From a virus, in IMG/VR virus record IMGVR_UViG_3300029448_000244, positions 1 through 24,508 of that record: DNA of 24,508 bases. The stretch is one strand, 5' to 3'. Of this stretch, positions 7,965 to 24,508 are shown piece by piece. Both the position numbers and the translations under genes were made by a program. How positions within the stretch are numbered: position 1 is the first letter of the stretch; the number at the start of each line of letters is the position of its first letter. The notes beneath the pieces are model-generated. The model had not been told where the DNA came from, made no database searches, and saw only the letters and a program-made list of their open reading frames with translations.

Positions 7965-9242
7965 TTACTTCTGTGACTTTGTCAAAGATTCTTCTAAATC
8001 TGGTAATAAGGTACGCCAGGTAGTGCTATTCCTAAACTTATCCTGGTGGTCGTTGTATCTCATGAACATCTTCTGATATATTTTTTGTTGGTCAGTTGAG
8101 AATGTCTCTGTTCTCAAATCAGTGGCATGACCTAATAACTTTGTCACTGTGTTTGCATGGTCAATAGTTTTTGAGGCCTTTTCTATCCTGTCTGCAATTT
8201 TTAATCTATGCTCTGTTGGTAGGATGGCATAATCACAGATGATTGGATATCTAACCTGCGATACCCATGCGATGTCACAATCATCGCTAATGAAATTTTG
8301 TAAGAAGAACTGACACATCTCAGGTAATTGGTCGATGTTCAGTAATTGTATGGCCGGTGCAAAACTGAATCGTCCATTTTTGTGTTTTTCTACTGTGGCT
8401 TTATAGAATGATATGGCTTTCAACACACTGTTCCAGTCACAGGGATATCTGATATATCTGTTCCTTGCGTCCAATCCGTCGATGCTGGCATGGATAGTGA
8501 AATGTTGCACAGCACCCAACCAGGTGGATAGGTTCTTGCTGGTGTTGGTCATGTTTGTCGTGATAGTCAACTTTTTATCTTTGAGTGTATCCTGCACACT
8601 ACAATATTCTAACAACTCGTAAAATTCTTTTATTATAGTTGGCTCTCCACCTATCACTACCAATTGATCAACATTCTTACTGACGTGTTCAAATATACTT
8701 TTTTTGATCTTTTTATTCTTGTACCAATCGTATTCTATTTCAAGCTCGCCAGTCCAGTTGTTCAGTACACCACTTTCCTTCTTAACCCATTTAAGAAATT
8801 CTGGATCCTGTTTGCCCATCTTGATCAGTTCCTTACCGATCATGTGACTGAACTGTTGGCTACACATCTTACAATGTAGGTTACAGGTGTTTCCAAAATG
8901 TAGTTCCAATGACGTGGGAGCATGGTCAACACTGCCGTCTTTGTTGGTTGCACTAATAAACTTTTCTTTGTTTTCGATAGTCCTCATCGATGTCAACCCT
9001 TGCGACTCCGCCGTGACACATTTTTGGCAATTAGTAATCTCCTCACCTGCGATCATCTTGAGTCTGATGTTCTTCATGTACTGGCTATTCCATGAATCAA
9101 GCATTTCGTCTCTGTTCATTTTATAGTGGTCATACTGGTTCTCTTTGGTTATGTTGTCCTCACTCATGCAACATATCTTCTGATGTCCTGTGGTGTGGAC
9201 ATACTGATGACGCCATGGATATGAGCAGTAAGTTTTAGACAT
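7965..9242 (-). CDS. Radical SAM protein no. 1 with N-terminal Cys-rich (SPASM/twitch-like) domain
   Basis: I place the start at the ATG at 9242 (425 aa). It gives an 8-nt ATGTCTAA overlap with the upstream peroxidase gene; an ATG at 9278 would add 12 residues. The radical SAM cluster motif is CNLHCKMC (Cys120, 124, 127), followed by the GGEP glycine motif (VVIGGEPT). Ahead of the core are Cys6 (CSYPW), Cys24/25 (KICC) and Cys72/75 (NCQKC) with a DSWNSQYMKNIR block. That arrangement resembles an auxiliary Fe-S SPASM/twitch domain, here N-terminal rather than in its usual C-terminal place. The core would cleave S-adenosylmethionine to a 5'-deoxyadenosyl radical. The substrate is unknown. It is one of three related genes in the window. 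Confidence 0.88.
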   Translation of the reverse strand: MSKTYCSYPWRHQYVHTTGHQKICCMSEDNITKENQYDHYKMNRDEMLDSWNSQYMKNIRLKMIAGEEITNCQKCVTAESQGLTSMRTIENKEKFISATNKDGSVDHAPTSLELHFGNTCNLHCKMCSQQFSHMIGKELIKMGKQDPEFLKWVKKESGVLNNWTGELEIEYDWYKNKKIKKSIFEHVSKNVDQLVVIGGEPTIIKEFYELLEYCSVQDTLKDKKLTITTNMTNTSKNLSTWLGAVQHFTIHASIDGLDARNRYIRYPCDWNSVLKAISFYKATVEKHKNGRFSFAPAIQLLNIDQLPEMCQFFLQNFISDDCDIAWVSQVRYPIICDYAILPTEHRLKIADRIEKASKTIDHANTVTKLLGHATDLRTETFSTDQQKIYQKMFMRYNDHQDKFRNSTTWRTLLPDLEESLTKSQK

Positions 9243-9654
9243 GTTGTAGTAGGTCCCTAGGTTTAAAATGTGCATCAAATTGCTTCACAAAATTATGTTC
9301 TTTATCTAATAGATACTTGTTGAAGTTCCAGTCGGGAGTGCCAAATGTTTTGAAGACTTTATGTTCAAGGTCTGTCTTTTTACACACAGGAAATGTCACG
9401 TCGTAATGGGTCCTGCAGAATTGTAGGAGTTCATAGTTGTCCCCGGGCTCCTGTCCTCCGAACATATTAGTGGGGAGTGCAACAGGCACTATGTTTCCTT
9501 CTTGGTACAGTGTTTGGAATTCTGCAAACTGTTTGGTAAATCCACACTGCGAGGCACTATTGAATATCACTATGGGTTTATTGTAAAATCTGTTAGAGAA
9601 CAGCAAACCATCTTTCAATGATTCCAGTTCAAGTTCCAATAACTTGTCGGTCAT
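9235..9654 (-). CDS. Glutathione-peroxidase-like thiol peroxidase
   Basis: The product is 139 aa, shorter than typical bacterial GPx/BtuE (about 160-180). The catalytic tetrad is visible: Cys37 (SASQCGFT), Gln68 (FGGQEPG), and Trp109-Asn110 (PDWNFNKYLL). Cys80 (LLQFCRTHYDVTFP) sits where the resolving cysteine of non-seleno, thioredoxin-dependent GPx lies. It should reduce hydrogen or organic peroxides using thioredoxin or glutathione. Usual PCNQFGGQE is here PTNMFGGQE. There is no signal peptide, so it is cytoplasmic. The shortening is at the N-terminus and in the loop before the WNF block. The stop overlaps the radical SAM start by 8 nt, so the two are translationally coupled; protecting an oxygen-sensitive Fe-S enzyme is one reading. 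Confidence 0.85.
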   Translation of the reverse strand: MTDKLLELELESLKDGLLFSNRFYNKPIVIFNSASQCGFTKQFAEFQTLYQEGNIVPVALPTNMFGGQEPGDNYELLQFCRTHYDVTFPVCKKTDLEHKVFKTFGTPDWNFNKYLLDKEHNFVKQFDAHFKPRDLLQHV

Positions 9655-15045: not shown

Positions 15046-16116
15046 ATGAAAAAGATTTTTATTCTTACAGATTTAATGTTTTCGGGTCAGCATCTCCAAT
15101 TTGAAAACTTCATTAGAAGTGCCAATATAAGGGATATAGAATTTACCTATGAGCCCGAGTACTGGAATTTACACAACTATGATTGGGACACTTACGATGC
15201 TTTATATTGTATAATTGATCAAAGAGAACAGTTTATTGAAAACAAAGAATTTATCACACAACTACATTCAAGACTGGAGATATTGAATCAAAACGGTTTC
15301 AAGTTTATACTTGCTTGTCCATGGGAAAGTGGTGATAATATTAAGCACAGCAAATTCTTTAAAGAAATACAAAAATATGAATACACCAATTGGCACGGTG
15401 ACACCACATGGTTTTGGTATTGGATGAGAGAAAAACACAGGAATAACAAATTGCAATTTTCACATGATCATAATGGCAGTTACTGGCACAAAATACACGA
15501 GTATCTATATCTAAACAAGGCCACGAGAACACACAGGGTAAAACTATACAAAAAACTAAAACAAGAAAACGTTTTGGAGAATAGCATTTACACTTTTACA
15601 ATGCTGGATACACCTATCAGACTACCAAAGAAATATGAATTACCTGGCATAGACCCCGAGGACTATCCACGTTTTGGCAAGGACCAAGACATTTACGAAC
15701 TGCCGTACATTGACACAGTTTGTTCAATAGTTTCTGAAACCAATGACAATGATCATGATGTGTTCATGACAGAGAAAATATGGAAACCAATCTTGGCACA
15801 GCACATTTTTATTGTGCATGGAAATTATCTATACCTACAAAAATTGAGGGAGATGGGCTTCAAGACTTTTAACAATTACTTTGATGAAAGTTACGATTTA
15901 GAAAGAGATCCAGACAAAAGGATTGACAAGATAGTGTCTTTATGCAAGTCTCTAAAAGATAACAGCAAAGAATTACAGCATGGCCACAGGAAGTGGCAGG
16001 ATTTGTATTTGCGATCCAAAGCTCTTAGACAACACAATTATGATGTGTTCTGGAGTGACGACTACTATCAACGAGCAGTGACACAGACAGTATTAAAATT
16101 CCTAGGCATCGAGTAG
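15046..16116 (+). CDS. Glycosyltransferase-like protein (GT-B-type C-terminal block)
   Basis: The product is 356 aa. The N-terminus (MKKIFILTDLMFSGQH) begins like a Rossmann-type strand. A middle HR block (THRVKLYKKLKQENVLENSI, residues 162-181) is followed by FMTEKIWKPI (240-249), GNYLYLQKLREMGFKTF (259-275) and FDESYD (279-284). The TEK-W-PI segment followed by a hydrophobic strand and acidic block recalls the donor-binding part of GT-B enzymes such as GT10 fucosyltransferases. Cys-free except for a few positions; no signal or membrane helix. The donor and acceptor sugars are unknown. It starts 19 nt from a divergent gene and its last 15 nt overlap the convergent radical SAM gene. No clear promoter or Shine-Dalgarno is visible. 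The family call is tentative. Confidence 0.72.
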   Translation: MKKIFILTDLMFSGQHLQFENFIRSANIRDIEFTYEPEYWNLHNYDWDTYDALYCIIDQREQFIENKEFITQLHSRLEILNQNGFKFILACPWESGDNIKHSKFFKEIQKYEYTNWHGDTTWFWYWMREKHRNNKLQFSHDHNGSYWHKIHEYLYLNKATRTHRVKLYKKLKQENVLENSIYTFTMLDTPIRLPKKYELPGIDPEDYPRFGKDQDIYELPYIDTVCSIVSETNDNDHDVFMTEKIWKPILAQHIFIVHGNYLYLQKLREMGFKTFNNYFDESYDLERDPDKRIDKIVSLCKSLKDNSKELQHGHRKWQDLYLRSKALRQHNYDVFWSDDYYQRAVTQTVLKFLGIE

Positions 16117-17382
16117 TTTAGATATTTCAGGAAATAAGATACGGTAATCCAATTTTCTTCTTCTGTCCAGTTCTTGTAGATAACCTTTAAGCATTTTTTG
16201 ATCCCACTTATTAGGTTCTGTATTTTCACATTCAGTTTTTATTCCTATTAAATGATTGAGTTGCGCCTGCTTTATCAAATCTCCATTGGTTTCAAACATG
16301 TCAATGGCCTGTGATATTCCCAAAGGTATGATATCCTTTCCAAAGATAGTGGGATTCAGATATGGTCTCATATGATCTCCCGCCTTCATTCCACTCCAAT
16401 AAACCTGCCTCACCTTAGACCATGTGTTAATTTTTTGTATCAAATCCGGTAGAGTTGGAATAGTCAAGGCCATCAAGGCACTATTGATGCTTTGGGTGAT
16501 GCGTGTCTTGTGCAAAATAAATTCAAAATTCTCAGTATATTTTTTTAGATCTAATCCATTTCGCACATACTCTGCCTGTGGTCCCCAACAGTCTAGACTT
16601 CCAACAACTTGTAAGTTGTGTAATTTTCCTTTTTCAACCATTCGCCACATCCTTGCGAGCCATTTCTGCACCCTAGGTGGATCAACAGTGAGGTTTGAGA
16701 ATAACACCAGGGTAAGATTAGGATTATTAGTGCGTTCTAATAACGCTATCATTCTTTCAGTTTCTTTCTGTAGGAAAGGTTCGCCACCCAATATCATTAC
16801 TTTGTTAAGTTCATGTATGTGTTCTTCAAGCCAAACAAAAAGTTTATTTGTGTCATCCTCTATGTTTGGATTTACTTCAATCTTGCCGTATATTCTTACA
16901 GGAGCACCTTCGTTGTTTTCGAAACCATAATCAAATTGCCCATGTATTCTGTTCTCATTATCTATAGTTGAACTGAATTTTGAATTGCAGTAGATACATT
17001 TCAAATTACAGGTATTGCCAAAATAAATTTCCAACTGTGTGGGTGTAACATTAGTCGCTTTGTTATCACTCTCAAGTTCTTTTGGAGCAGTGACACCTTG
17101 CATGTTTAAATGTGACATCCTGTCTGAATGGCCACCGGCATCCTCAGTGCTCTTGCAGTGTTCACATCCTCGGCCAGGCCATTCCCCTTTCAACATTTTA
17201 CCTCGTGCTTCAAGTTTTGTTTTTATGTTGTGGAAATTCATTTTGTTATCTTTGAATTCATAAGGGTCATGAGTGACCCTATGACAACTTGCAGTAGTGC
17301 CCATGGTCAAGAACACCGTGGAGTGATTCCACTTTAGTTGACAAGGTATTCCTGATTTGATAGGAAAAGGTTTTGATTGCAT
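16102..17382 (-). CDS. Radical SAM protein no. 2 with N-terminal Cys-rich domain
   Basis: The product is 426 aa. The cluster motif is CNLKCIYC (Cys125, 129, 132), with the GGEP motif in MILGGEPF. The N-terminal region has Cys14 (GIPCQLKWNHSTVFL), Cys33 (TASCHR) and Cys73/76 (GCEHC), then an EDAGGHSDR block. Spacing of these four cysteines is close to that in the other two radical SAM proteins here, supporting a shared auxiliary Fe-S site. The core should produce a 5'-deoxyadenosyl radical. The substrate is unknown; peptide, nucleotide or sugar are all possible. It is divergent from radical SAM no. 3, with 32 nt between starts, and its 3' end overlaps the glycosyltransferase-like gene. Confidence 0.87.
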   Translation of the reverse strand: MQSKPFPIKSGIPCQLKWNHSTVFLTMGTTASCHRVTHDPYEFKDNKMNFHNIKTKLEARGKMLKGEWPGRGCEHCKSTEDAGGHSDRMSHLNMQGVTAPKELESDNKATNVTPTQLEIYFGNTCNLKCIYCNSKFSSTIDNENRIHGQFDYGFENNEGAPVRIYGKIEVNPNIEDDTNKLFVWLEEHIHELNKVMILGGEPFLQKETERMIALLERTNNPNLTLVLFSNLTVDPPRVQKWLARMWRMVEKGKLHNLQVVGSLDCWGPQAEYVRNGLDLKKYTENFEFILHKTRITQSINSALMALTIPTLPDLIQKINTWSKVRQVYWSGMKAGDHMRPYLNPTIFGKDIIPLGISQAIDMFETNGDLIKQAQLNHLIGIKTECENTEPNKWDQKMLKGYLQELDRRRKLDYRILFPEISKLLDA

Positions 17383-17414: not shown

Positions 17415-18671
17415 GTGAATAATAAAAAAATTAGATGTGTTTTAGCAGAATGCGGTATTGGTGTAGAAAACGCAGGTCATGTCAAAATGTGTAATGCTAG
17501 TAGGGAAGTATTCATGGACGACAAAAATCAACCGTATAGATTGGATACCAGTAGCATTAAGCAAATCTATCAAAGCAAAACCAGGAAAAAAATATTAGAA
17601 GATTTAGCAAACGGAGTACAACCTTCCAACTGTGAATCTTGTTGGGACTCAGAAAGATCTGGTGTTGAAAGCATCAGGCAAACAATGAATAGTGCAATTC
17701 CGGAAAATCCAAATATGGTTGCCGGACAGCCAAGTATTATTATCCTTAAACCAGGCAATCAATGCAATCTTGCCTGTAGTTATTGTAATCCCGAAACAAC
17801 TTGGAAATTATATAAGTCGGATTATATTTTGTCAGATCCACCTAGCAAATTACCCAATACCTATGAATGGTACAAAGAAAAATTCAAATACAAGAGTGCA
17901 GATAGTAAGCCTTCATACAGACAGTATATCTCACAATTTAAATCGCAACGAGAAAGTTTCAATAGAAGTAATGAGTTATGGAAAGACCTAGCAGATTGGT
18001 CTCCTGGTATTGTGCATTATGCACTGTTCGGTGGTGAACCTTTTGTAATGAAGCCTCTGTTTGATTTGCTAAATGAGACGGCTGACAAAGGTGATGCGGA
18101 ACATATCAGCCTTTACATCAGCACCAATGGCACTGTATGGTCCAAGAAACACATCGATACACTACTGAAATATGAATCAGTTGAACTTGGAATCAGCATT
18201 GATGCATTGAATAAACAATTCGAATATATGAGATACCCTGCCAAATGGGAAAAGGTGTTGTCCAATTTTGAAAAGTTTATCGATTTACGTGCAAAATCAA
18301 ATTCAGGAAAGGTAAGATTAAAGATAAGCGGTACTGCTAATCCTTACAATGTTTATTATCTAGATGAATTAAAAGATTTTGGTAAAAAATATGATGTTGA
18401 TGTAGACATCCATTTAATACAGATACCTGAGCATTATGATGTCCGTATACTTCCTGACAAGGTAAAAGAAGCAATTATTGAAAAGTTTAAGGATCGACAA
18501 GACTTACAAAATGTCAGCACACATTTAGAAACAACAATTACAAATGCTGATAAGCACTGCGAGGATTTTGTTTATTACACCAAGGGTCTAGATAAAATAA
18601 GAAACTTAAATTTTGGAGATACCTTTCCGGAATTTCAAAAGATATTACACCAAAGCAATATCAAAATCTAA
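17415..18671 (+). CDS. Radical SAM protein no. 3 with N-terminal Cys-rich domain
   Basis: The product is 418 aa with a GTG start; the ATG two bases earlier is followed at once by a stop. The cluster motif is CNLACSYC (Cys117, 121, 124), and the glycine motif is FGGEPF. Cys8, Cys26 and Cys73/76 (CESC) precede the core at almost the same spacing as in radical SAM no. 1. The segment between the cluster motif and GGEP is longer than in the others and is Lys/Tyr/Ser-rich (about residues 130-190). A late ISTNGT strand and SIDALNKQFEYMRYP match typical radical SAM barrel strands. It looks more AT-rich than its neighbours. The last 4 nt overlap the convergent 18668-19882 gene. The substrate is unknown. 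Confidence 0.88.
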   Translation: MNNKKIRCVLAECGIGVENAGHVKMCNASREVFMDDKNQPYRLDTSSIKQIYQSKTRKKILEDLANGVQPSNCESCWDSERSGVESIRQTMNSAIPENPNMVAGQPSIIILKPGNQCNLACSYCNPETTWKLYKSDYILSDPPSKLPNTYEWYKEKFKYKSADSKPSYRQYISQFKSQRESFNRSNELWKDLADWSPGIVHYALFGGEPFVMKPLFDLLNETADKGDAEHISLYISTNGTVWSKKHIDTLLKYESVELGISIDALNKQFEYMRYPAKWEKVLSNFEKFIDLRAKSNSGKVRLKISGTANPYNVYYLDELKDFGKKYDVDVDIHLIQIPEHYDVRILPDKVKEAIIEKFKDRQDLQNVSTHLETTITNADKHCEDFVYYTKGLDKIRNLNFGDTFPEFQKILHQSNIKI

Positions 18672-20242: not shown

Positions 20243-20902
20243 TTATTTGACTTTACTATACACGAAATATTTCCGTTGATTAGTGTCATCACGTATATCT
20301 AGTACACTTAAATTGTACATTTCAGCAAGTTCTATAATGAATGGCACGTTCCAGGCGTAGAATTCGATCCAGTCCGCTTCTGGTTTGTCATGTGATAGTC
20401 CTGGATTGACCCTAAAAAACATTGTGCCACCTTTCGCCAACAGATTAACACAACGTCCTACTTCTGCTGTGATCTTGTCCCTGCTACCAAAATTAACCGA
20501 ACCCAAACATAAAATTACATCAAACTTCTGATCTGTTTTGTACTCCAACGTGCCGACTTCTAGGTCCGCATTTTTGTTGTAGGGATCTATACCTATAAGA
20601 TTCTGTATCTTGCCTTTGAATTCGTTGTAACCACATCCAACATCAAGCACCGCCCGTGGTTTAAGATTGTTGACTTCATCGATAAGCGCCAATCCAGAAT
20701 ATTTCCATTTCTTCATGTCGTTCTGCCAGTATTTGGAAAAATACTTGTTTAGGCATTCATCATCAATTACTTCCGCATACTTTTCTAGGCTCTCACAGCG
20801 AGGGACCGCAACGCCAAATTTTTCAAGTATGTAAGGTTGTGTAATTTTTTCTATATTGTTTTGACTATAACTTAAAAGTTCTGCAAATATTTTTTTATTC
20901 AT
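20243..20902 (-). CDS. Class I SAM-dependent methyltransferase
   Basis: The product is 219 aa. The Rossmann-type methyltransferase motifs are in order: VLDVGCGY (85-92, motif I, SAM-binding glycine loop), IGIDPY (103-108, acidic residue for the SAM ribose), FDVILCLGSVNFG (127-139, motif IV region) and LLAKGGTMFFRVNPG (154-168). The N-terminal 80 residues form a helical cap (ECLNKYFSKYWQNDMKKWKY), which likely decides the acceptor. The acceptor is unknown; small-molecule or sugar methylation is likelier than DNA, as no DNA-target motif is seen. The start overlaps the previous gene by 8 nt (ATGAATAA). It is the last gene of the tctA operon. Confidence 0.85.
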   Translation of the reverse strand: MNKKIFAELLSYSQNNIEKITQPYILEKFGVAVPRCESLEKYAEVIDDECLNKYFSKYWQNDMKKWKYSGLALIDEVNNLKPRAVLDVGCGYNEFKGKIQNLIGIDPYNKNADLEVGTLEYKTDQKFDVILCLGSVNFGSRDKITAEVGRCVNLLAKGGTMFFRVNPGLSHDKPEADWIEFYAWNVPFIIELAEMYNLSVLDIRDDTNQRKYFVYSKVK

Positions 20903-21473
20903 GTGATCTATAGACGTATACCTTGGTGTCTCGTTGTGCGTAATTATGTATCCTTAATTTTGGATCTGGTGATTTTATTTTAAGCACTCTACAAAGGTCA
21001 ATGTTGTCTATAGGACATTCAATATTGCCAATATTTTGTTGTATGAATTTGGTAATATCTCTATTCTGTTTTAAGATATGTGTTTTCATTTCGTTATTTG
21101 TTCCAAAATAACTGTAATCGGGATATGTGATATCAAAACCTCCAGCCTTTATCCACCAGTCAAAGCATTCAAGATGGCTTCGATATATTATTACAATGGG
21201 ATAACCCAGTGTCTTAAGTTCATCAAGTTTATGTGAGAATGTGTGTGACTTTATTATTCTCTTGCCGGAGCCAGAGAAAGGTTTATCCCAATTTTCTTTT
21301 GCATTATCAAACTCCATGCCTGGATCAAAATATGATCCAACGTGTTTGACTCCTCCATTTAAATATCTCCTTTCACTGGTGCTATCTGATTGATCTATAT
21401 CAGGGGAGTGATAAATGCTTTCGGCAACACTACTCCATTTAGATCCAGGTGCACCAGTAAAAAGAATATACAT
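20895..21473 (-). CDS. P-loop protein, sulfotransferase-like
   Basis: The product is 192 aa. The N-terminal strand and loop GAPGSKWSSV (7-16) resembles the phosphate-binding loop of PAPS-dependent sulfotransferases and related P-loop folds, though it is not a canonical Walker A. RIIKSHTF (72-79) and IVIIYRSHLECFDWW (93-107) match the sulfotransferase pattern of a His/Ser loop followed by a strand ending in YR-(S/D). These regions bind the 3'-phosphate of PAPS. The C-terminus is Arg/Asp-rich. An ATPase or kinase cannot be excluded. The start overlaps the tctC stop by 1 nt (TAATG), and the stop overlaps the methyltransferase start by 8 nt. No PAPS synthesis genes are visible in the window. Confidence 0.72.
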   Translation of the reverse strand: MYILFTGAPGSKWSSVAESIYHSPDIDQSDSTSERRYLNGGVKHVGSYFDPGMEFDNAKENWDKPFSGSGKRIIKSHTFSHKLDELKTLGYPIVIIYRSHLECFDWWIKAGGFDITYPDYSYFGTNNEMKTHILKQNRDITKFIQQNIGNIECPIDNIDLCRVLKIKSPDPKLRIHNYAQRDTKVYVYRSHE

Positions 21474-22519
21474 TATTTTGTGAGTTCTTCTTTGTAAACC
21501 GTGTTGTAACCCAACTGTTCACTTTTGAAATCACTCAAAGTTTTGAGAGCCTTGGATGTTATAAATGACTTCAGTGTTCTCACTGCGGCGTCACCTTCTG
21601 CACCTGTTCTCCATTCGTACTTGCCCACTTTCTTCTCGATAGCGGCCACTGACTCCGGATCATTTATCATCTTGTTCAGTGCTTCTACAAGTTTCTGTTT
21701 GTTTGGATTGCCTGCGTTCACCCAGAATGCTTTCTGTAGGGCATCTCTCCAACTCTTCACAAGTTTGTATGCATCATAGAAGTCACCACTTGGTGCAGTC
21801 AACCACATCTCTTCATACAGTTCCTCAAATGTAGGCTCTTGAAAGTTTGGATCCGCACTATGTTCCCCAGTGTTGACATCTAGTAATCCATGATGGAACC
21901 AAGTAAAGGCATCACCTTTTTTGATAACAGGCAACACGTGTTTTTTGTATGCCGCAGGGTTCTCTCGTGTGGCATTAAGGTCACCTCTTATGAATGCAAG
22001 TCTTCTCTCAGATCCTTTCATTCCTTTTACCCAGATAATCTTTTCCTCAAATGTTTTTACTGGATCATTATTTGGCCCTGCAAGTAACATCGTAATCGCC
22101 ATCACTTCCGGTGTCATACCCGATCCTGATGGAAACTGTATTGGCCCATTTAGCACGTCGGCATTCTTTCTTGCACCCACAATGATGTTTAGATTCATTT
22201 GTCCTATCGATTCCCAATCTAGATAATTGTAATCAACTGGCTCAACAAGATACGAAATACCGTTTCCCCCATGTGATACTAATATAGTCTTGTCGTCGAA
22301 CCTTAATTTGTTTTGGAACTCGTTTGGTCCCAGTTGGTCTCTGGCACCTGGCTTGTAGATCAAGTTGATCTTTTCTCCAAGGTGTTTCTCCCATTCTGCC
22401 ACAACTATCTGTGCCCACACAGAAGTTCCACCAGAAGGTTTTTGAGGCACGATTAAATTATAATCTGCCATGGCTGTTGTTGTCATTATCAACAAAGCCA
22501 GTATTGTTTTCTTAAGCAT
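21473..22519 (-). CDS. tctC: TctC-like periplasmic solute-binding protein (TTT family)
   Basis: The product is 348 aa, near the family's usual 320-330 plus a small extension. A Sec signal peptide (1-18, MLKKTILALLIMTTTAMA) is followed by the mature start DYNLIV. Family features are PQKPSGGTSVWAQIVVAEWE (ligand-loop and first helix), YKPGARDQLGPNEF, LDWESIGQMN, and an inner block with GSERRLAFIRGDLNATRENP. TctC proteins capture carboxylates in the periplasm and deliver them to TctA/TctB. The ligand cannot be read from sequence. The gene overlaps tctA by 8 nt (ATGCTTAA) and the next gene by 1 nt, so all are co-translated. The PSGG loop is a variant of the family's more usual AAGG-type turn. Confidence 0.88.
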   Translation of the reverse strand: MLKKTILALLIMTTTAMADYNLIVPQKPSGGTSVWAQIVVAEWEKHLGEKINLIYKPGARDQLGPNEFQNKLRFDDKTILVSHGGNGISYLVEPVDYNYLDWESIGQMNLNIIVGARKNADVLNGPIQFPSGSGMTPEVMAITMLLAGPNNDPVKTFEEKIIWVKGMKGSERRLAFIRGDLNATRENPAAYKKHVLPVIKKGDAFTWFHHGLLDVNTGEHSADPNFQEPTFEELYEEMWLTAPSGDFYDAYKLVKSWRDALQKAFWVNAGNPNKQKLVEALNKMINDPESVAAIEKKVGKYEWRTGAEGDAAVRTLKSFITSKALKTLSDFKSEQLGYNTVYKEELTK

Positions 22520-23948
22520 AGTCTATTCTACTCCGTTTTGTTATTCCCCAATACAGTAATAGTATAACACAGATCATTATAAAAATAAAGATAGGTCTTG
22601 TGATCACATCATTTACCGTATGTAGAGATGTTAGTTGATAAGTGAGATTGTATATCCTGTCACTCAACAGGTACCCTATCAGCAGTGCTGGCCTGCTGAC
22701 TTGGAATTTTTTACATAGCAGTCCCATGATAGAGAATGCTACAAGCACTGCAAGGTCTTCCCACCCGCCTGTGTACTGCAAGGTTGCCCAAACAATAACA
22801 GCAAGTATGAAAGGAAAGTAGTACACGTATGGAATACGTGTCACCCACCCTGCGAAATATGCCAGTCCATAACAGATGACAGCAGTTATTAAAGTTCCTA
22901 GCAAGAATGCGTAGGTCATGCTGTCAAATAGTTTGTCGTCATAAAAAGTATCAGGAGATCCTAGATCAATGCCTAGGTATAAAAACAGTCCCATCAGTAT
23001 CGCGGCGAATGGTGCACCTGGGATACCAAACAACACTGTTGGAATAAATGAAGAGGCCTTCTGTGCGTTGTTGGCACCTTCCGCTCCAACAACACCTTTG
23101 ACGTTGCCCACTCCAAACTTCTCTTTGGGATTGGCCGCCACCGTGGCTCCATATGCCAACCAGTCTGCCATCGCACCACCCAGTCCAGGCAGTAGTCCTA
23201 TGAAAGAACCTATGGCTCCTCCCCTTATGCTGTCCTTCCAACATCTCACAGTGTCCTTGAAACCTTGTATGAGGTCTTGCCAACTGCCTTGTTCTGCTTT
23301 TATTAATGTGGTCTTCTTTCTGTTGAACCATCCGTTCCAAAGTTCTGGTATAGCGAACAGTCCTGCCACGAAAGGTAATATCTGTACACCGTCCTCGAGG
23401 TATCTCCAACCCATCGTGAACCGAGGTACATTGTTGACATCGACACCTACAAGTCCTATCGTGATTCCTAACACTATTGCCAGTGTGCTTCGGACATATT
23501 TCCTAGTGGATACAAATCCCACAGTCACAAACGCCAACAGCACCAATGCCCATAGTTCGGGTATGCCCATGTACATGACAACTTTTGTGTACCAGGGTAA
23601 AAATAAAAATGTAAGCGACCCAAAGAACAGGCCATTCGCTGTGCTAGATGTTATTGCCGCCGACAAGGCCCTTGTTGCCTCCCCGTTCTTGGCCATTGGG
23701 AATCCGTCCACCATAGTTGCCGCCGCGGAGTTGGCTCCCGGTATGCCCAATAGCACACCTGCAAAAGAATCACCGGTTGTTGAGGATGCCACAACTGCCA
23801 CACAAAAAATCACACCCAAGTAGGGTTCGCCCACAAAGTAGGGCATGAATCCAAATAGTGTGATTAAGCCTGTGGTTGCACCCGCGGCTGGTATTAGGCC
23901 AATGATCAAGCCGTAAACAATACCTGCCATTAAGATAGCAAGTTCCAT
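22512..23948 (-). CDS. tctA: TctA-like large membrane permease (TTT family)
   Basis: I place the start at the ATG at 23948 (478 aa); a GTG at 23987 would add 13 polar residues before the first helix. The family is about 500 aa with 10-12 membrane helices, and the two inverted halves are visible. Half one has GLIIGLIPAAGATTG, then LLGIPGANSAAATMVDGFPM. Half two has GLLPGLGGAMADWLAYGATV, then FGVGNVKGVVGAEGANNAQK and LFGIPGAPFAA. The paired (G)xPG and GIPG motifs are the family signatures. It moves carboxylates with TctC and normally TctB, driven by an ion gradient. No TctB lies between or beside it. It is the first gene of the operon. No confident promoter is visible in the upstream gap. Confidence 0.92.
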   Translation of the reverse strand: MELAILMAGIVYGLIIGLIPAAGATTGLITLFGFMPYFVGEPYLGVIFCVAVVASSTTGDSFAGVLLGIPGANSAAATMVDGFPMAKNGEATRALSAAITSSTANGLFFGSLTFLFLPWYTKVVMYMGIPELWALVLLAFVTVGFVSTRKYVRSTLAIVLGITIGLVGVDVNNVPRFTMGWRYLEDGVQILPFVAGLFAIPELWNGWFNRKKTTLIKAEQGSWQDLIQGFKDTVRCWKDSIRGGAIGSFIGLLPGLGGAMADWLAYGATVAANPKEKFGVGNVKGVVGAEGANNAQKASSFIPTVLFGIPGAPFAAILMGLFLYLGIDLGSPDTFYDDKLFDSMTYAFLLGTLITAVICYGLAYFAGWVTRIPYVYYFPFILAVIVWATLQYTGGWEDLAVLVAFSIMGLLCKKFQVSRPALLIGYLLSDRIYNLTYQLTSLHTVNDVITRPIFIFIMICVILLLYWGITKRSRIDYA

Positions 23949-24045
23949 ATTATAAATCTTTAGGATTGGTAATGTTGTGAACTTCACTAGGAGCGTTACA
24001 ACAAATTATGTGTAAGTAATTATTCATCGTGTTAAGTAATATTAT

Positions 24046-24501
24046 ATGAAACTGAGTCGAAAGAAGCAACAAAAATTTATAATGTACAGGACATATAGTC
24101 ACCATGATCATGACATTGATGACTTCGACGAAGAGTTTTGGCCTATGATGGGCATACTTCTTTCTATCTGGGCAGTGTGGACAGGATTCATTCATTTGTT
24201 AGACTGGCTAACTTTTGATGCTATTGTTTGGTGGGTGGAACCCTTTACCATAACTCCTGTTTTATTTTTAATCGTAATGAAAGAGAAGTATGACTCACTG
24301 AATCCTCTTCACTGGTGGCCGATGGTTTGGGGATATAAAGCCAAACTGCCGGATGAGGACAGGATAACAATCAGACCATTAGACACAGAACGCATACTGC
24401 AACAGCATGGCGGTCCGTTAAATGTTCACATCATGGACTATGAACACATCAAGTTTCGTAGAAAGAAGGATGCTGTTATTTTTGGCTTGAAATATTTCTA
24501 G
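24046..24501 (+). CDS. Two-helix membrane protein (unknown)
   Basis: The product is 151 aa. A basic, His/Asp-rich start (residues 1-30) leads into two hydrophobic helices, about 34-52 and 57-78, then a Trp-rich loop (LHWWPMVWGY) and an 80-residue charged cytoplasmic-type tail (EDRITIRPLDTERILQ onward). It is divergent from tctA, 97 nt from the tctA ATG. TctB proteins have about four helices and lack such a tail, so I do not call it TctB. Met13 (24082) is an alternative start; neither has a Shine-Dalgarno. The family is not recognised. It could be a phage envelope-modifying or superinfection-exclusion protein, but nothing in the sequence shows this. Confidence 0.7.
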   Translation: MKLSRKKQQKFIMYRTYSHHDHDIDDFDEEFWPMMGILLSIWAVWTGFIHLLDWLTFDAIVWWVEPFTITPVLFLIVMKEKYDSLNPLHWWPMVWGYKAKLPDEDRITIRPLDTERILQQHGGPLNVHIMDYEHIKFRRKKDAVIFGLKYF

Positions 24502-24508
24502 ACGGTCC

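Follow-up and report, generated by a model that had tools for sequence, protein, structure and literature searches.

A phage TctA-TctC gene pair without a recognisable TctB in a transporter slot of marine T4-like phages

Background

Can a transporter related to the tripartite tricarboxylate transporters (TTT, TC 2.A.80) be built from two parts only? TctB is the TTT subunit to which no function has been assigned. Whether TctA needs TctB is debated (PMC5812351), and according to a 2026 paper no TctB has been characterised (PMC13390454). The question is raised here by a locus on viral DNA, found in a stretch of 24,508 nucleotides (hereafter the window) that makes up positions 1 to 24,508 of the 30,821-base IMG/VR record IMGVR_UViG_3300029448_000244. 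A first-pass annotation had described the locus as a phage-encoded TctA-TctC transporter without a recognisable TctB, and had left three options: the phage lends its parts to a host TctB, encodes a TctB elsewhere in its genome, or uses a two-part transporter. The features of the locus are as follows.

20243..20902 (-), methyltransferase-like protein of 219 aa, the slot's downstream anchor (PF13489 at 22 bits, below cut-off)
20895..21473 (-), P-loop protein ("sulfotransferase-like") of 192 aa, after tctC
21473..22519 (-), tctC-like secreted solute-binding protein (SBP) of 348 aa (from ORF, Foldseek and hhalign)
22512..23948 (-), tctA permease of 478 aa, PF01970 at 310 bits, terminating in ..RIDYA without a TctB tail
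23971..24004 (-), leader hairpin, conserved, 22 nt upstream of the tctA start; its stem has a bulged C and an internal loop of 2/1 (from folding and model R1)
24046..24501 (+), divergent 151-aa protein with two hydrophobic segments, the slot's upstream anchor in 60 of 84 loci; not TctB

Just past window position 24508, a stretch of unknown bases (L002:419-685) interrupts an ORF and marks a scaffold join beside the slot.

Results and discussion

The permease and its binding protein

The tctA product matches PF01970 far above the cut-off of 28.9 bits and covers profile positions 1-422 of 423, which bears out the complete TctA permease described earlier. Its start is placed at the ATG at 23948, since among relatives this is the sole conserved start and protein-level conservation does not extend upstream of it; a GTG at 23987, itself unconserved, was rejected. 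In the phage TctA the last TctA helix is followed by an [IL]DYA tail, and there the protein ends. A profile search of PDB sequences gave no relative of TctA or of the binding protein. Among the INPHARED phage records none has a TctC gene, and the matches to TctA are, in our reading, apparently bacterial DNA; they lie in short faecal records that carry no annotation, in small records with phage names and in one record of bacterial chromosome size.

The tctC-like ORF overlaps tctA by 8 nt, as had been noticed, and its product possesses a signal-peptide-like N-terminus. Pfam gave no TctC match even at E <= 1 when eight homologues were searched. An AF2 model of moderate confidence, built from eight viral sequences (pLDDT 59, pTM 0.63), was compared with the PDB by Foldseek and found nine matches at E <= 0.001, all of them chains of TctC/Bug-family proteins (Bug27 as the best at 5.5e-6, BugD, 2dvz, MatC, TphC and a terephthalate-binding protein). 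Since Pfam is blind to this protein and the fold matches are all TctC/Bug, the TctC label rests on fold. The earlier description of a TctC-type binding protein with a signal peptide appears to be right, the predicted fold of the 348-aa exported protein being that of the TctC/Bug type, with no Pfam support.

Distribution, selection and phage origin

Close-relative patterns recovered 62 distinct TctA loci and 203 matching stretches for TctC from IMG/VR. The tctA gene lies directly before tctC in 95 of the 95 viral loci with room, the P-loop gene follows tctC in all 124 with room, and the order tctA-tctC-P-loop gene is common to about 100 viral loci from many samples; these counts are of loci and not of independent contigs, as some contigs are represented by two loci. 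Moreover, tctAC is found together with gp23 capsid and terminase genes on one contig of 108 kb (G002). This contig and the recurring order confirm that the pair is phage-encoded and has conserved neighbours. Judged by NrdA and DUF6267, the closest relatives in culture are the Pelagibacter phages HTVC008M and Mosig, and cyanophages. The carriers are a group of uncultured marine T4-like phages with the pair at a fixed spot of the genome, and their hosts are perhaps Pelagibacterales. A scan of bacterial genome contigs gave a sole match, a phage contig binned in a Pelagibacter MAG. This contig (L145, CAJQJC010000036.1), of the same phage type and assigned to a Candidatus Pelagibacter MAG in GTDB, represents phage DNA in a reference bacterial genome.

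Both genes are under strong purifying selection with dN/dS of about 0.06 (median pairwise values of 0.063 for tctA from 55 distinct sequences and 0.060 for tctC from 74). The median synonymous difference (pS) is about 0.60 for tctA and tctC and 0.72-0.80 for the neighbour genes (window 20243-23948), a pattern that would fit a spread of the pair by recombination between these phages.

Several other genes were noticed in the window and on contig G001. The window encodes three radical-SAM-like proteins, of which 17415-18671 is above the Pfam cut-off for radical SAM, 16102-17382 just below it, and 7965-9278 recognised by its CxxxCxxC motif only. Contig G001 carries a full-length cytochrome b (L140:13489-14748, +; PF00033 and PF00032) between fibre-like genes and a clamp-loader gene, a xanthine/uracil permease family protein (L142:14336-15625) and a CHASE2-guanylate cyclase (L139:5236-7074); a cyclase is annotated in HTVC008M too.

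Bacterial relatives and the TctA phylogeny

The best TctA matches in the SAR11 order are proteins of 651-668 aa, in which the C-terminal part is a weak match to PF07331 (TctB). The phage TctA terminates where the fused protein runs on into TctB, and hence has no C-terminal TctB half. When Alphaproteobacteria were searched with the binding protein alone, the SBP was found beside a fused TctA-TctB in 11 of the 11 loci read, and likewise in eight Pelagibacterales loci chosen through TctA (19 of 19 in total, excluding loci from a wider phylum search that were too short to tell TctA fusion). The phage binding protein is of the matching subfamily, with an hhalign probability of 99.8 (E = 8.5e-30) against the SBPs beside fused TctAB.

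A TctA phylogeny with bacterial homologues, as the first-pass annotation had proposed, places all phage slot TctAs in one deep clade (UFBoot 100) that is sister to the fused TctAB clade; this is the ML tree, in which an earlier FastTree topology was redone with more phage types. Monophyly of the fused clade is supported by only 47 and therefore a lost TctB and a line that was never fused are indistinguishable: the phage TctA may either have lost its TctB half or descend from a line that split off before the fusion.

The phage proteins share about 34% (TctA) and 27% (binding protein) identity with the nearest bacterial ones, sampled from parts of Pseudomonadota plus, for TctA, plasmids. They are so far apart that the phage genes are therefore not recent host genes. 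Compared with an AMG, the pair is alike in lying intact on phage DNA under purifying selection (gp23 and terminase on G002; dN/dS), while low identity and the deep clade, within the sampled Pseudomonadota parts and TctA plasmids, speak against recent acquisition from a host. Several bacterial genomes have PrpF next to the fused operon, and aconitase was found in one locus tested. These neighbours hint at aconitate-like acids as the solute, which would be only weakly transferable to the phage at such a distance.

Absence of a recognisable TctB

A PF07331 search at E <= 10 found nothing in the window's own record and nothing in ten related contigs of 56-172 kb, and hence the earlier statement that no TctB is recognisable stands for these 11 records. 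The related contigs are fragments, the one of 172 kb having no detectable gp23 and terminase. The same profile, as a positive control, exceeds its cut-off in 55 of the 147 Pelagibacterales genomes searched, and fused TctB tails in this order are picked up too (E from 5e-6 to 3e-4); the search is therefore sensitive to TctB of such kinds. An HMM built from the fused tails gave nothing among the phage ORFs (best E = 0.44). Four large related contigs, about 470 kb in total, have no TctB profile match and no convincing small four-helix protein in common. Closer to the gene, 99 of 125 viral loci contain no small ORF with at least three helices within 8 kb of tctA, and most of the remaining candidates look on inspection like antisense shadow ORFs or represent a 200-aa membrane protein that is unrelated. 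The 151-aa protein next to the hairpin was also rejected as TctB; it has only its two hydrophobic segments, points away from tctA and shows no TctB profile similarity. The other TTT types found in the slot, at loci L241, L243, L246, L255 and L276, are all without TctB. TctB is poorly conserved, and profile searches could miss one; because the sample includes no complete genome, a TctB could also lie elsewhere in the phage genome.

A second and very divergent TctA (L137:10798-12981, +; PF01970 at 199 bits) is present on contig G001, followed by a 274-aa exported binding protein. This pair has no adjoining TctB, lies between 2OG-oxygenase-like and SufB genes, and its TctA was found in one IMG/VR contig only.

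Of the parts of a TTT, the phage locus thus has a TctA permease over the full profile and a TctC/Bug solute-binding protein by predicted fold, not by sequence profile; TctB, free or fused, was not found in its own record and ten contigs, from incomplete genomes. We therefore name it a TTT-like two-part system and not a complete TTT.

A transporter slot behind a leader hairpin

The hairpin is present once per locus in about 85 loci, and only upstream of transporter genes. Over all IMG/VR its pattern occurs on 59 contigs: 53 times before the window-type tctA, five times before other SBP-TctA pairs (SBP first, with a TctA 42-45% identical to that of the window) and once before a sodium:solute symporter. 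All 59 hairpins are upstream of the same methyltransferase gene, which is order-conserved across loci, and most have the 151-aa gene on the other side. The symporter (PF00474; L257:2471-3913, -) occupies the same slot with the same leader, and the slot methyltransferase comes next. Where a locus extends at least 3.5 kb upstream of this methyltransferase, it has tctAC in 17 cases, another TTT pair in eight and the symporter in one, and none is empty; this sample favours close relatives of the window, and six of its loci were chosen through the hairpin. The locus serves these phages as a cargo slot, with swappable transporters behind one conserved leader hairpin. The first-pass annotation was correct on the phage-encoded pair, and missed both this slot with its leader and the fused TctA-TctB proteins as nearest relatives. 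Its label of "sulfotransferase-like" for the 192-aa neighbour could not be confirmed beyond a generic P-loop kinase/sulfotransferase fold; Pfam has no match for this protein.

Covariation in the hairpin is weak within the close set (107 of 500 shuffles reach the observed score), and no credible RNA family was found in Rfam. In 197 Pelagibacterales genomes model R1 matches only the MAG-binned phage contig, plus two marginal matches (E = 0.09). Upstream of tctA in L122 and L127 a different sequence has the same fold layout, with a bulged C and an AAC/GUU stem; R1 does not recover these look-alikes, so their kinship rests on inspection of the fold. The hairpin may have a regulatory role, either as a leader in the RNA or as an operator in the DNA.

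A two-part transporter and its alternatives

On balance, the pair is probably a phage-specific two-part relative of the TTT. The binding protein would be exported to the periplasm, where it may capture a small, probably carboxylate, solute and hand it to an ion-coupled TctA permease made in the infected cell, and the module would be expressed behind the conserved hairpin from the transporter cargo slot of marine T4-like phages. Family membership suggests the direction of uptake and the class of substrate; we infer that the pair functions without any TctB, and the carboxylate substrate and late-stage timing given in the first pass are likewise presumed. Of the three options listed there, the two-part one is now favoured because every TTT variant in the slot is without TctB and none occurs in the about 470 kb of the four contigs, with some probability left to the other two. 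A two-part TTT is the simplest account, short of proof, of TctA and TctC kept together through deep divergence with TctB never seen.

Rather unlikely, yet to be taken seriously, is that the phage TctA and TctC use a host-made TctB, so that the working transporter would be a three-part hybrid of phage and host. TctB is available in 55 of the 147 Pelagibacterales genomes searched, and the nearest cultured phage relatives include the Pelagibacter phages HTVC008M and Mosig. However, Pelagibacterales are only presumed hosts, and 92 of the 147 genomes are without any TctB match. In the bacterial systems closest to the phage pair TctB is part of the TctA protein, which leaves no free partner to be expected from that subfamily; where TctB is free, it goes with TctA of other subfamilies. 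It is improbable that a diverged or unrelated small membrane protein, encoded elsewhere in the phage genome, replaces TctB. No small protein of three to five helices recurs near tctA in the 125 viral loci (99 with none), the four contigs of about 470 kb have no TctB profile match, and the 151-aa neighbour, with its two helices, shows no similarity to TctB, although the genomes are incomplete and TctB is the least conserved of the TTT subunits (PMC5812351).

The pair might not be an importer at all. Solute-binding proteins are able to work as sensors, and the phage one might do so, with TctA serving, for instance, as a decoy on the cell surface or as a factor in superinfection. This seems very unlikely, as the two genes stay together in all loci, and that the slot can hold a sodium:solute symporter (PF00474) instead points to uptake as the common function. 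Hardly credible at all is that the assembly joined a bacterial TTT operon to a phage contig. The window's record is a single scaffold in which a run of unknown bases comes directly beyond the window's end, but about 100 loci from many samples share the gene order, which refutes such a join, and the phage versions are only 27-34% identical to the bacterial ones.

Relation to known systems and implications

The favoured two-part system resembles the fused TctAB with SBP of Pelagibacterales and other Alphaproteobacteria in TctA and SBP homology and in its two-gene make-up. It differs in that the bacterial TctA has 650-750 aa with a C-terminal TctB half, whereas the phage TctA has 478 aa, and in gene order, which is SBP then TctAB in bacteria and TctA then SBP in the window. 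With the classical tctCBA of Salmonella and the Bug systems of Bordetella it shares the TctA family and the TctC/Bug fold of the binding protein; unlike them it has no tctB, a binding protein unseen by Pfam and a different order. The stand-alone TctA proteins of archaea (Winnen et al. 2003, as cited in PMC5812351) are, by that citation, without TctB like the phage pair; they also have no TctC, whereas the phage keeps its binding protein.

TTT-type genes have been seen on marine viral DNA before, as a tctA domain match in viral contigs from SUP05 SAGs (PMC4164917) and as "tricarboxylate transport" beside norB/nirK on an OMZ myovirus contig (PMC8115048). In the parts of these two accounts reached by a search of open-licence full texts, the conserved TctA-TctC pair, the missing TctB, the slot and the leader do not appear.

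It is quite possible, at slightly less than even confidence, that a true two-part TTT importer without TctB and interchangeable cassettes behind a shared cis-acting leader hairpin together form an "uptake slot" of this marine phage lineage. A TctA-TctC pair that occurs in nature without TctB, in abundance and with strong conservation, allows the need for TctB to be tested directly. Moreover, a slot with alternative uptake systems behind one leader suggests that these phages choose the nutrient imported by the infected marine cell, which would go beyond the known phage cases of phosphate and nitrogen.
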